Source: a virus. From it: DNA of 53,367 bases. The position numbers and the translations under genes are program-made. Shown here piece after piece: positions 5,516 through 43,331 of this stretch. Under the pieces are notes generated by a model. The model worked only from the letters and a program-made list of their open reading frames with translations, did no database searches and was not told where the DNA came from. Location of the stretch: IMG/VR virus record IMGVR_UViG_3300003886_000006, positions 1 through 53,367 of that record; one strand, 5' to 3'. Every line of letters begins with the position of its first letter. Within the stretch, counting starts at the first letter, position 1.

Positions 5516-5773
5516 TCAGTATCCCATCTCCATCTCATGCATCATGATGTTGTAGTTGTCCCATTCCTCTTCGGTTGTGACGCGTTTACTGTGGCAATGA
5601 TCGCATGGATGATCATATGTACCGCTCATGTAGTTGTCGACGAAGTCAGATCCTTGTTCATCCATCTCGTCCGCGGTGTACGCGTATCCGTGGAGAGTTT
5701 GTGTGCCGCGTCCGTGACAGAGCGGGCAGACAATGTAGGGTCCGTGTTTGGTGTCGCCGGTCATGGTTTCCAT
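5516..5773 (-). CDS. DnaJ-type zinc-finger small protein
   Basis: An 85-residue protein with two cysteine pairs: CPLCHGRG near residues 16-23 and CDHCHSKR near 57-64. CxxCxGxG is the repeat of the DnaJ central zinc domain; the second motif lacks the glycines. GGGAG precedes the ATG at 5773. It is the first gene of the early block beside the origin/parS region and lies about 60 bases from the regulatory element at 5832-5858. A similar zinc motif occurs in the protein at 35448-35693. Confidence 0.75.
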   Translation of the reverse strand: METMTGDTKHGPYIVCPLCHGRGTQTLHGYAYTADEMDEQGSDFVDNYMSGTYDHPCDHCHSKRVTTEEEWDNYNIMMHEMEMGY

Positions 5774-5831
5774 ACTGTCTCCCTTGTTTGCGCGCGCGTG
5801 TTCTTCCGTGCGCGTCGGTCCGCCACCAACG

Positions 5832-5858
5832 GTAGCAAATCTGCTACACGATGCCTAG
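5832..5858 (-). promoter_or_regulatory. Operator-like element, second copy
   Basis: Minus-strand CTAGG, six bases, then GTAGCAGATTTGCTAC (6-bp arms), matching the element at 1980-2006 in sequence, spacing and orientation. It lies upstream of the early gene starting at 5773. A third, less perfect palindrome of the same type is at 51806-51821. Confidence 0.6.
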
Positions 5859-5917
5859 GGCCAATATCTGCCAGCCGCCACCAACAACCAGGTCTACACC
5901 ACCAACAACCAGACCAG

Positions 5918-6024
5918 ACATATCCGACCAGTCCCATTCCGCCACACACACATATCCGATAACCATATTCTGACTACACACACATATCCGATAGCCACAT
6001 TCTCACACACACACATATCCGATA
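5918..6024. repeat. Iteron array, 31-32 bp period
   Basis: The core ACATATCCGA occurs at 5918, 5950, 5982 and 6013, giving spacings of 32, 32 and 31 bases, about three DNA turns. The last three copies extend to ACACACACATATCCGATA and are followed by similar bases. Such phased repeats are typical binding sites of replication initiators or partition proteins. Confidence 0.75.
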
Positions 6025-6296
6025 TGTTGCCAATATCGCATACACATGTCTGATAGGTGGAGGCAGACAGACGTTAGATGACGGTTATGTGGGATATAGG
6101 TGGCGTGTCATGCGGACAGCAAAAACACATTAGGTTTACCGAATACTAGACACTGCTTTACTGCCACATATTGGAAGGGATTTGGTGGTGTGGGGTAGCT
6201 GATGGGTTGACGTGTTCGGGTTGGATCTGCCCGGTAAAGCTACTATCCATTCACTATTCGGCATCTAGCATCTGATGTTCGATACCTGATAGTTGA

Positions 6297-6312
6297 TGTT
6301 TCACGTGGAACA
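6297..6312. promoter_or_regulatory. parS: parS centromere site 1
   Basis: TGTTTCACGTGGAACA, whose reverse complement TGTTCCACGTGAAACA is the classic bacterial chromosomal parS sequence bound by ParB. The flanks extend the near-palindrome to 20 bases. An identical site lies 140 bases away. No parA or parB gene was found in the window. Confidence 0.9.
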
Positions 6313-6356
6313 TCGGCCGGCCATCTACGTTACGCGCCAGCCGTCATCGACCAGTA

Positions 6357-6385
6357 GATATTCGGTTAAGCGGATATTCGGTTAA
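6357..6385. repeat. Short direct repeat between the parS sites
   Basis: GATATTCGGTTAA occurs at 6357-6369 and 6373-6385 (period 16). A related box in inverted orientation, TTTACCGAATA, is at 6135-6145. Possible binding sites of an initiator protein. Confidence 0.6.
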
Positions 6386-6436
6386 CCAAATACATGCCCA
6401 TTTCTCTGTCACCAGCCGACACATGTTTCCGTCTGA

Positions 6437-6452
6437 TGTTTCACGTGGAACA
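6437..6452. promoter_or_regulatory. parS: parS centromere site 2
   Basis: A second perfect TGTTTCACGTGGAACA, in the same orientation as the first. Identity with site 1 covers 21 bases and stops just outside the palindrome, so selection appears to act on the site itself rather than on a longer duplication. Confidence 0.9.
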
Positions 6453-6855
6453 TCCGCCTGCTTGCCTATCTTTCCTCTATCTGACAGCAGCCGAAACGCT
6501 ATCTACTCTTACCCATCCTTACATGCTTCTAAATAACATCAACCTATGATCGTTAAACAATGTTATCTATCATCGAATATCACACATATCACTGTATAAA
6601 GATGGTAGAAAATCCCAACCCCGGCCCGAAAAGGCAGAATATGGGAGGACATGCCCCCCGCAAATTTTCACCCAAAACTACTGGCGGTTAAGAAAGATTA
6701 GATGGAGTAGAGGGGTGGAAGAGAAGAAGTAGAGAAGGAAGGTAGAGGAGTGGTGGAGTAGAAAGGTAAGGAACGGTGGGTAAAGGGTGAAACGACAGCG
6801 GGGTGGAAAGCAACCGCCTCCCCACCCCACCACCTCAACAACAACCTATCAACAA

Positions 6856-7236
6856 TCAGCTATCCGCCACATCCCCATACAACGGTGTGGCTGCAACCCC
6901 CAACATCCGTTCCGCCCACGGATATCTGCGACCCAGCCAACGCGCCGCGACATAATACAACGCGGACAGGCCATTCGACATTGCGATAATGACCGATGCG
7001 GAAGTCGAATCGGAGACGACAATGTTGAACTGGCGGGCCAGCAACGTTACCAGATAGCCGACTGCGATCGGAGTCAACGTGCGGATATGGCCGATAATGT
7101 AGTCGGATAGGACAGAACGCGGACGGGGGCTTTGCATAGAAGACACGTTGAGATTGAAACCCGAACCGGCCGGACCGTCTGCCGGACCGTCTGTCGAACT
7201 GTTTGAACTGTTCGGACCGTCACCTACAATTTCCAT
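6856..7236 (-). CDS. Putative holin
   Basis: A 126-residue protein with a Ser/Gly/Pro-rich N-terminus of about 40 residues, then two hydrophobic segments (about 55-70 around LTPIAVGYLVTLLA and 80-98 around SVIIAMSNGLSALYYVAA), and a C-terminus with Arg/Trp. It follows the endolysin by 28 bases and has an AAGGAGAGG ribosome binding site. Size, membrane topology and position fit a phage holin that releases the endolysin through the inner membrane. It is the last gene of the late block, next to the gene-free region. Confidence 0.65.
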   Translation of the reverse strand: MEIVGDGPNSSNSSTDGPADGPAGSGFNLNVSSMQSPRPRSVLSDYIIGHIRTLTPIAVGYLVTLLARQFNIVVSDSTSASVIIAMSNGLSALYYVAARWLGRRYPWAERMLGVAATPLYGDVADS

Positions 7237-7264: not shown

Positions 7265-8350
7265 TTACTTCCTTACCTTCTTCACCAAACTGTCCAGCCG
7301 TCCGCCGACCGCATTCAAATCGCGGGTGATCGACGACATAGCCACCTCGCAGCTAGACAAACCTGTCTTCAACTTGGCAATATCCGACCCGATCTGAGTC
7401 AAAATCGGATCAGATATGCGGCGCAGGTTACGGTCAAACGTCGCCCCCATCGTAACCTGCAACAGACTGGCGAACATTTTGCCGGTCACAATCGAACCGC
7501 GATCAGACGGGGCAGCACCCGGGATCTGGCCGACCGCGTCAGCCGTCCTATCCCCATACACGCCGTCCTCAACCAGACCGGTGTTATACACGTCGTTTAG
7601 TAGAGACTGGATCACCGCAACATCGGACCGTTTAAAGGCGCGAACCCCGGACCCGTCACCCCGTTTGATAGGTAGAAAAGGCATATCATCTCCTCCGATC
7701 GGACTGTTTGAAAAGTCAACCATACGATTCGTAACTAAACCTAGGAACTGTTCCCATTCGTTACTGTTGAAACCCGGATCGGTGCGGCGGGTAGGGTCCA
7801 GATTGGTGTGGCCGGTGAACCCGGCTAAACCCGAATCGACCTCAGCTTTCGTACGGAACACAACCGGAATCGAATACAACGACGCGACCTTCGCACATTC
7901 GATAGCCGCTGCCTCCAACAGGGCGGTTTTAAACCAGACAGGGACAGTCCCCCACTTGGCTGCCCGAGTCGCAATCTCAACACCCCAACCCCGCGTGTTG
8001 TAGCCGCGGACGTGAAACGCGACCGCAGTCGAAGGGAGCAGATGGACAGTCGAATCGGAATCGACAACCACATGGGCGGACGCAGGGCGGGCGTTACCGG
8101 TGAAATATTTGGCAACAGACTCCGCACCCGAATCGGGTGGGATAAAATCGGGGATGTTCTCCGCAGTATGAACAACGATAATGTCGGGGGCGCGGCCAGC
8201 CCGACGCGACGGGTAACCCCAAAAACGCAGCCCGTTAGACCTGACCGGCGCAAACCGGTTCTGATGGGTGAAAAGGAAATATGAAGCAGGGGGAGAAGGG
8301 GAAGCAGGGGAAATGGGGAAAGAAGGTTTAGCAGATTTGATATGTGACAT
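7265..8350 (-). CDS. Endolysin, N-acetylmuramoyl-L-alanine amidase
   Basis: A 361-residue peptidoglycan amidase of the Amidase_2/PGRP type, which cuts between muramic acid and the stem peptide. Visible zinc-site motifs are IIVVHTAEN (His near residue 61), SAHVVVD, and FTGHTNLDPTRRTDPG near residue 200, giving the usual His, His, Asp/Cys-like set. The C-terminal third holds an IQSLLNDVYNTG/DGVYGDRTADAV segment like peptidoglycan-binding domains, then a helical tail. The start at 8350 was preferred because AAAGGA lies eight bases upstream. Neighbours are a holin and a second membrane protein. Confidence 0.88.
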   Translation of the reverse strand: MSHIKSAKPSFPISPASPSPPASYFLFTHQNRFAPVRSNGLRFWGYPSRRAGRAPDIIVVHTAENIPDFIPPDSGAESVAKYFTGNARPASAHVVVDSDSTVHLLPSTAVAFHVRGYNTRGWGVEIATRAAKWGTVPVWFKTALLEAAAIECAKVASLYSIPVVFRTKAEVDSGLAGFTGHTNLDPTRRTDPGFNSNEWEQFLGLVTNRMVDFSNSPIGGDDMPFLPIKRGDGSGVRAFKRSDVAVIQSLLNDVYNTGLVEDGVYGDRTADAVGQIPGAAPSDRGSIVTGKMFASLLQVTMGATFDRNLRRISDPILTQIGSDIAKLKTGLSSCEVAMSSITRDLNAVGGRLDSLVKKVRK

Positions 8351-8525
8351 CGATGGCATCCTTTCCGAAATCTGAGGCAACGTCAAAGACGAAACCGTCG
8401 ACTAGCTGTTTAACCGACCAGCCGACCAGCTGTTTAACCGTTGACGACGATAGCAGAAGGGCAATCGACTACAGCACTGTCAGAGAATGGTAAACGGAAA
8501 CGTTGAATCATGTCAGATCCACATG

Positions 8526-40505: not shown

Positions 40506-40826
40506 TTACCCCATCACCCCTCTACCCCTCTCCCTTTCCCTTCCTTCCCCTTCCCCTTCCATCCTCATCTTTTTAACCTGATACCGGTCCCGTCGTAACA
40601 TCCCACCCCACATCCCTCGAAGCTGGTTGGTGGTGATCGCATAGTTGAGGCAGTCGGCCCGCACTAAACACCTTCCACATATTTTCCGTGCTTGAACTGT
40701 CGATTTGCCTTGAAGTGGGAAGAAAATGTCGGTGTCCATACCGGTACATGCCGCCTCTTCACGCCACTCGTTGGCTGCACCCCAAATGTTGCGGCTGGGT
40801 GACATGTCTGTTCTTTTCACTGTCAC
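40506..40826 (-). CDS. whiB: WhiB-family transcriptional regulator
   Basis: A 106-residue protein with the four Fe-S cysteines (C near 27, then CGRC and a further Cys in CGRCLVRADC near 50-58) and the GMWGG beta-turn, followed by a basic DNA-contact tail. WhiB proteins bind the principal sigma factor and are found only in Actinobacteria and their phages, so this is the best host clue. GTG at 40826 overlaps the upstream stop, with AAGGTG before it. The C-terminus is an odd Gly/Glu/Arg-rich repeat encoded by purine-rich DNA. Confidence 0.9.
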   Translation of the reverse strand: MTVKRTDMSPSRNIWGAANEWREEAACTGMDTDIFFPLQGKSTVQARKICGRCLVRADCLNYAITTNQLRGMWGGMLRRDRYQVKKMRMEGEGEGRERERGRGVMG

Positions 40827-41754: not shown

Positions 41755-42123
41755 CTACGGCCGAGGTTCGCAAGTGTGATCCCAATGATGGCGACTGTTA
41801 CCGACGTAACGTGATCCACGAACTTCGACACGAAGGGTAAGCAAGTCGTGGGCGAGCCGATTAACGAACAACGCATCAGCCTTTAACTGCTTAGCCATAT
41901 CAGTTGTCACGGCTATTCCAGTTTCCTTCGCCATGTCGGCTTCGGTTTCGAAGTCACAGCCGATACGCATCAGCTCATATATTCGCCTCTTACCTGGGGT
42001 CAACTTCGCAATTCGATTCAACCGATCCTGCAACTTTCGTTCCTGCTTCGTCGTCGTTCGAATTCGTCGCGTAATGTTTGCAGCGTCAGCAATACCCGTA
42101 GCATCTACAGCAGTATCCATCAT
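41755..42123 (-). CDS. Hypothetical protein downstream of RtcB
   Basis: A 122-residue protein whose ATG overlaps the RtcB stop (ATGA), so it is made with the ligase. The N-terminal half is basic and helical (TRRIRTTTKQERKLQDRLNRIAKL), a likely nucleic-acid-binding face; the rest includes MAKETGIAVTTDMAKQLKA, which could be a helix-turn-helix. A partner or RNA adaptor of RtcB is possible but unproven. Confidence 0.6.
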   Translation of the reverse strand: MMDTAVDATGIADAANITRRIRTTTKQERKLQDRLNRIAKLTPGKRRIYELMRIGCDFETEADMAKETGIAVTTDMAKQLKADALFVNRLAHDLLTLRVEVRGSRYVGNSRHHWDHTCEPRP

Positions 42124-43331
42124 GTTCCCTTGTAGTTGAGGATTTGTCTAAGCTCGACTTTGATTTCAACGAGATCAGCTTGAAGTGCCATGACACGATT
42201 GATGTCTTTATAGGATCGCGGGTCTTCGTCGATAAGCAATGCAGCCTTGTCCTTCAACCACGTTTTGCCTTTCATCAAATCGGTGAGTTCGTCTGCGGTG
42301 AACTGTCTCTTCGCGGCTTTCCGCGACATTCGTCTCCCTGCCCCATGTGCCGATGATTGGAAAGACGCTTTGTTGCCTTTACCTTTCACAATGAAGCTGT
42401 TGGTGCCCATCGACCCTGGCACAACTCCCCAATCACCCACGCGGGCGCGGATAGCTCCTTTACGGGTGATCCACAGGTTCCGCCCCATGTGATTTTCAAG
42501 GGCGATATAGTTGTGATGACAGTTGATGCGGCGACGTTCTGAGATGCTATCAAGCTTCTCTTTGGAGACAGCAACTGCTATCGCGTCAAGTACTGCATCC
42601 ATCATCGCTTCCCGGTTAGCTAAAGCATATCTCTGCGCCCACATGAGGTCTTCGATGTAGTGGGTGAACTCCTCAGTATCTTCAACGAAATAGGCCAGGT
42701 CCGGATCATCAAGCTGAATGAACCGACGCTTCATATCTCCCTTAGCTGTCTCGATATGCTTCCGAGCCAAAATATTGCCCACACCGCGAGAGCCGGAATG
42801 TAACACAACCCAAACACCCGGATCGGAGCCAGACGTGGCAACAAGATTTTCCTCATAGAGGGCTTCGACAAGACAGATTTCAACAAAGTGGTTGCCGGAA
42901 CCTAGAGATCCGAACTGGTTGACGGTGCGTTGCTCCAAACCGCATTCTTCCACCGACTCGTTCGGATTGGCACGTATCCACGCATCCCCCATATTGGAAT
43001 GTTGATGGCCTTTACCAACACCGGCCGGAACTGTCTGCTCAATATGTGACAGGAGTGGTCCTAAATCGTCGGGCAGATCGGAAGCGTCGAGGGTGGTTTC
43101 TACTGCAATCATGCCACAACCGATATCTACCCCTACTGCGGCAGGCATGATGGCCCCTCGGGTCGGGATCACCGACCCTATTGTTGCTCCCATGCCAAGA
43201 TGAGCATCAGGCATGAGAGCGACATGGGGCGACACGAAAGGCATGTCACCACTACGGGTTGCCTGTTCGACCACATTGTCTTCAAGATTGTCGGCCCACG
43301 ATAAAACATGGGGGGTGAGTCTCTTAGGCAT
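42120..43331 (-). CDS. rtcB: RtcB-type RNA-splicing ligase
   Basis: A 403-residue RNA ligase that joins 2',3'-cyclic phosphate and 5'-OH ends. Family motifs are all visible: PDAHLGMGATIGSV near 41, VGVDIGCGM near 66-74 (metal Asp and Cys), LGSGNHFVEI near 150, LHSGSRGVGN near 183, HNYIALENH, and SSAHGAGRRMSR near 340, containing the His that carries GMP. RtcB repairs tRNAs cut by anticodon nucleases, so in a phage it could undo abortive-infection tRNA cleavage. It is slightly shorter than cellular forms. Confidence 0.92.
   Translation of the reverse strand: MPKRLTPHVLSWADNLEDNVVEQATRSGDMPFVSPHVALMPDAHLGMGATIGSVIPTRGAIMPAAVGVDIGCGMIAVETTLDASDLPDDLGPLLSHIEQTVPAGVGKGHQHSNMGDAWIRANPNESVEECGLEQRTVNQFGSLGSGNHFVEICLVEALYEENLVATSGSDPGVWVVLHSGSRGVGNILARKHIETAKGDMKRRFIQLDDPDLAYFVEDTEEFTHYIEDLMWAQRYALANREAMMDAVLDAIAVAVSKEKLDSISERRRINCHHNYIALENHMGRNLWITRKGAIRARVGDWGVVPGSMGTNSFIVKGKGNKASFQSSAHGAGRRMSRKAAKRQFTADELTDLMKGKTWLKDKAALLIDEDPRSYKDINRVMALQADLVEIKVELRQILNYKGT

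Follow-up and report, generated by a model that had tools for sequence, protein, structure and literature searches.

Two chromosomal-type parS sites in a gene-free region of a tailed actinophage: a possible means of borrowing the host ParB

Why would a phage without recognisable partition genes carry two perfect copies of the target of a bacterial chromosomal ParB? The question is raised by the viral record IMGVR_UViG_3300003886_000006, which was analysed here over its whole length of 53,367 nt (hereafter the window). The original prediction, made from the DNA letters, had proposed that TGTTTCACGTGGAACA occurs there twice and nowhere else, that both copies are placed next to iterons and an AT-rich tract in the largest gene-free region, and that the phage may load the ParB of its host.

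The parS-type pair and its surroundings

The window corresponds to the full record and carries a 91-bp direct terminal repeat, so that the genome is about 53.3 kb and circular or terminally redundant. Searches with Pfam and PHROGs recognised structural and lysis genes (terminase, portal, scaffold, major capsid, tape measure, endolysin) together with DNA- and RNA-related genes (a Cas4/RecE-like exonuclease, a Sak4/RecA-like protein, an ERCC4 nuclease, a DEAD-type helicase, a uracil-DNA glycosylase, RtcB and WhiB), every one of them on the minus strand, and the window represents the complete genome of a tailed actinophage. An actinobacterial host is very probable, because the genome encodes WhiB, reported to be confined to Actinobacteria (PMC8612146), and because the capsid relatives are phages of Microbacterium, Gordonia and Mycobacterium. 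The WhiB gene and the features around the sites are as follows.

5516-5773, minus strand: small hypothetical protein without a confident family, the nearest gene on the left
5774-6855, no strand: largest gene-free region, putative control/origin region, with no ORF of at least 60 aa within 5963-6786
5944-6068, plus strand: iteron-like direct repeats, four copies with 31-32-bp spacing, from a repeat search
6297-6312, plus strand: parS-type site 1, exact TGTTTCACGTGGAACA, core of a 20-bp near-palindrome at 6295-6314
6357-6388, plus strand: two tandem 16-bp repeats between the parS sites, with core TATTCGGTTAA at 6359 and 6375
6437-6452, plus strand: parS-type site 2, exact TGTTTCACGTGGAACA, core of a 20-bp near-palindrome at 6435-6454, 140 bp from site 1
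6856-7236, minus strand: small protein phrog_10742, the nearest gene on the right, adjoining the endolysin (holin-like position)
7265-8386, minus strand: endolysin (amidase), end of the late operon
40506-40826, minus strand: WhiB-type transcription factor (phrog_472, E=9e-22; Pfam Whib, 1.3e-19)

Coordinates and letters of the two perfect copies were exactly as predicted, and both match the 16-bp palindrome pattern TGTTYCACGTGRAACA. Identity between the copies exceeds 16 bp and covers a 20-bp imperfect palindrome, GATGTTTCACGTGGAACATC, plus the T that flanks it on the 5' side. Outside this shared palindrome the flanks differ (15% and 42% identity over 40 bp), and the pair is therefore not a recent long duplication. 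The statement that the window holds no further copy proved correct even when up to 3 mismatches were allowed; in dinucleotide shuffles the mean was 0.58 matches at <=3 mismatches, and none of the 100 shuffles reached 4. Genome-wide, 1.7e-5 exact matches are expected from base composition and ~5e-5 from a third-order Markov model of both strands, or about 3e-5 overall, against the two observed. The pair is real and beyond chance, as had been claimed.

Among palindromic hexamers, CACGTG is below expectation, with 6 copies against 10.7 expected in the window and 2 against 9.2 in the nearest complete relative, IMGVR_UViG_3300028840_005521. Several others are absent altogether, such as GGATCC (0 in the window against 17.0 expected), a scarcity suggesting restriction avoidance.

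The ORF scan also bore out the placement of the sites in the largest gene-free region, which, from the gene order, appears to separate the lysis or late-gene end from the small genes that head the next leftward early operon. The iterons reported nearby are genuine repeats: their core, CATATCCGATA, has three exact copies at 5951, 5983 and 6014 and is absent from the rest of the genome. Additional repeats lie around as well as between the parS-type sites, among them the TATTCGGTTAA copies and, at 6135, their inverted relative TTTACCGAATA. The description of the tract as AT-rich was right in relative terms only, with a GC content of 49% at 6001-7000 and about 55% elsewhere. No DnaA box was found in 5701-6900 with one mismatch allowed.

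Partition genes, host chromosomes and phage relatives

Six-frame searches of the window found no ParB_N domain and no HTH_ParB domain, with control genomes positive in both cases, and a phage-encoded ParB was rejected on these grounds. An autonomous ParABS cassette of phage or plasmid type, with parA and parB beside parS, was rejected as well, given the lack of ParB domains in the window and of a ParA family among the scanned ORFs. The window ORFs scanned with Pfam and PHROGs included no ParA, integrase or replication initiator, which is consistent with dependence on host functions, nor did the scans recognise a gene for lysogeny or plasmid maintenance. What the window presents is parS on a genome without a phage ParB, and the phi29 control shows the same pattern.

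On bacterial chromosomes, TGTTTCACGTGGAACA was found as 36 sites in 29 of 296 Actinomycetota genomes, with 0 for the reversed-pattern control, and at most of the 10 chromosomal loci inspected it has other parS copies, in several variant forms, as neighbours at up to about 1 kb. These counts and the neighbouring copies argue that TGTTTCACGTGGAACA is a real actinobacterial form of parS; judged by its distribution it is genuine but in the minority in Actinomycetota, and in a sample of mostly Mycobacteriales it was present in 2 of 19 genomes. The chromosomal type assigned to the phage sites is upheld by the occurrence of the same variant with an empty control. Loading of the host ParB is probable, as had been proposed, and is supported by the chromosomal variant, the ParB-less phage and the precedent of phi29 with the same 16-mer.

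Single-protein searches (terminase, a 682-aa protein, helicase) gave no close relatives of the phage, but family alignments did. The nearest complete relative, IMGVR_UViG_3300028840_005521, is 52,386 bp long, with identities of 77% for the capsid, 68% for the portal and 67% for the terminase, and contains no parS with two mismatches allowed. There, too, a non-coding stretch that is richer in AT and has repeats of its own (about 19.46-20.17 kb) lies ahead of the early operon, but no DNA similarity to the window is left in it. The two genomes are distinguished by an inversion of the structural and lysis module with respect to the early module; where the window has an all-minus gene order, the relative has a divergent one. 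The RtcB RNA ligase of the window (42120-43331; Pfam E=2e-116) has no tblastn match there.

Among capsid-relative records, 49 of 50 had no site and the remaining one had a single site with one mismatch; none of these 49, nor the nearest complete relative, keeps the DNA of the window region, and the nearer relatives, which are fragments (62% and 53% capsid identity), do not span the parS region. No parS was found in the three named capsid relatives examined, Indlulamithi, Tedro and LittleFella, and the parS region has no DNA similarity to named phages. Conservation of the sites in relatives, suggested earlier as a check, was thus not seen. Absence of the sites from close relatives that keep the region had been named as grounds for refutation; the sites are indeed absent, but the nearest complete relative is also without this stretch of DNA, so that the prediction is not strictly refuted on this count. 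We consider that the pair is probably a recent, lineage-specific gain, given this distribution, with loss in the relatives as an admissible alternative. A recent gain favours adaptation to a particular host over a core function, and the absence of the pair from relatives indicates that this phage group can do without it.

What the sites may do for the phage

The best explanation appears to be a functional parS that recruits the host chromosomal ParB and so retains or segregates the phage DNA, a reading that we hold to be moderately likely as a whole. Its first part, binding of the host ParB at the two sites, is likely; retention or segregation as the main benefit is only slightly favoured. By analogy with phi29 and SGI1, we infer that the host ParB would load, spread from the sites, and couple the phage DNA to ParA/SMC. 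ParB-CTP clamps of the actinobacterial host would load onto the two near-palindromes and extend from there over the adjacent putative origin/control region, and host ParA (possibly SMC or polar anchors) would then treat the phage DNA as a small piece of chromosome. The phage DNA would be kept with the origin region of the cell and handed to daughter cells, or to spores if the host sporulates, and might in this way be retained while infection is delayed or while the genome is extrachromosomal. Against this explanation stand the absence of the pair from the closest complete relative and from 49 of the 50 capsid-relative records, the minority status of the exact variant (2 of the 19 mostly Mycobacteriales genomes), and the failure to recognise any gene for lysogeny or plasmid maintenance that would back a long-lived extrachromosomal state.

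The main rival retains the binding of the host ParB and places the benefit in the lytic phase, where ParB/SMC would position or compact the phage origin, or modulate replication or early transcription, with no role in inheritance. The location of the sites in the presumed control/origin region, next to the iterons and where the leftward early operon starts, would suit such placement or regulation, as would the lack of lysogeny genes among the scanned ORFs. However, the sites of phi29 are scattered, so origin placement is no general rule, and no effect on transcription or replication can be read from the DNA; we regard lytic placement or regulation as rather unlikely.

It is improbable that the sites serve as operators of a different DNA-binding protein, either a phage ribbon-helix-helix (RHH) protein or other regulator or a host factor, with a coincidental match to parS. 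The window does encode a ribbon-helix-helix protein (Pfam RHH_10, E=2.5e-5), and palindromes are common among phage operators, but a full 16-bp match to a ParB target, present twice, far exceeds a generic operator resemblance, and the same sequence is found in unrelated phages of Firmicutes, Actinobacteria and Alphaproteobacteria without a known common regulator. Improbable, too, is a decoy, by which the replicating phage would titrate the ParB of the host and stop its chromosome from segregating, so as to favour itself or oust competing elements. The parS mimics of SGI1 do destabilise its helper plasmid (PMC10954446), but with only two sites per genome the window has fewer than one would look for in a decoy, some large viral contigs having 16-25. 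Least credible is a neutral passenger in the form of recently captured origin-proximal host DNA, for although the absence in relatives fits a recent arrival, the stretch common to both copies does not exceed about 20-28 bp, and two perfect sites persist while CACGTG is otherwise scarce in the genome and its relative.

Orphan parS in other viruses and known systems

Most single 16-mer matches in viral contigs fall inside long ORFs and may be chance, and therefore multi-copy or spaced-pair matches were used as evidence. Two parS sites 125-155 bp apart were present in 43 viral contigs, where by our estimate essentially none would be expected by chance. The 37 pair-bearing records examined have 1-25 sites each, with 0 for the reversed-pattern control in all 37; one terminase family was matched in 7 of the 37, the window included, and some of the records may be other elements or chromosomal fragments. 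A ParB_N domain was detected at E <= 1e-3 in 5 of the 43 contigs (2 above the family cut-off) and not in the other 38, many of which are fragments.

Named complete phages were picked because they match parS, so that their counts are not frequencies: phi29 has four copies (exact TGTTTCACGTGGAACA), the Gordonia phages Woes and Orchid two each, Lactobacillus Lpa804, Butyrivibrio Bo-Finn and Ruegeria RpAliso three each (two of those in RpAliso with one mismatch), and several Microbacterium, Arthrobacter and Clavibacter phages a single one. Paschalis alone among the named parS phages checked also encodes ParB_N. In the circular genome of Butyrivibrio virus Bo-Finn (MN882552.2), which has no ParB_N, the parS-type site at 7380-7395 overlaps an annotated predicted promoter.

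Chromosomal-type parS also occurs in small single-stranded DNA phages (bajarodino virus 6, PQ006149.1, and Microviridae records), and one 5.9-kb inovirus has six exact sites. Three high-GC viral contigs of 104-117 kb carry at least 12 and up to 25 exact parS (IMGVR_UViG_3300044694_000082, with 25; IMGVR_UViG_3300036852_000353, with 16; and IMGVR_UViG_3300037518_000322). Unlike the pair in the window, these are dense arrays with many sites inside ORFs, and they have no ParB_N match.

We tentatively suggest that borrowing of the host chromosomal ParB through orphan parS may be a widespread and repeatedly gained viral strategy of which the window is one instance, extending perhaps to tailed phages of Actinobacteria, Firmicutes and Alphaproteobacteria and to gut microviruses and inoviruses. 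This broader recurrence is a more interesting lead than the single pair. If the host ParB loads here, phages without partition genes would be segregated by the chromosome's own machinery, which would account for the possible survival, across divisions of the host, of some phages that have neither integrase nor ParAB, and would allow such behaviour to be predicted from a signature in the sequence. With the scattered orphan sites, phi29 changes from the single described example into a member of a class that can be tested, and the exact parS variant may help host prediction for uncultivated phages.

In the openly accessible literature, phi29 was the only described phage found to use the host ParB via parS; a study cited in PMC9437464 (Meijer et al. 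2005) reports that its genome is entrapped in spores in a Spo0J-dependent way. It resembles the window in the identical 16-mer, present in several copies, and in having no ParB of its own. Its four sites are scattered (10.4, 15.9, 17.2 and 18.8 kb) and its host is a sporulating Firmicute, whereas the window is an actinophage whose two sites lie within a single non-coding region, separated by 140 bp. By that report phi29 is known to exploit the host chromosomal ParB (Spo0J), a use that for the window is predicted from sequence, and the novelty implied by the original prediction is accordingly smaller.

Woes and Orchid are likewise actinobacterial phages without ParB_N and with two exact parS, near one genome end, but their sites are the perfect palindrome TGTTTCACGTGAAACA, spaced 421 and 965 bp apart, and they have no DNA similarity to the window region. 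In SGI1, two parS mimics bind the ParB of the IncC helper plasmid and stabilise SGI1 (PMC10954446), so that here too the partition system of one replicon is put to use by another, a mobile element that has parS in two copies; that ParB is of plasmid and not chromosomal origin, and the borrowing is proven by experiment where that of the window is predicted. Cluster A mycobacteriophages such as RedRock are also actinophages that use ParB/parS, for extrachromosomal maintenance, but they have ParA and ParB genes of their own, and in RedRock every parS locus is made up of eight 8-bp direct repeats (PMC7157519), neither of which the window has. Phage exploitation of a cellular ParB was thus already known, and what is new is the setting, an actinobacterial phage with a compact pair of parS sites.
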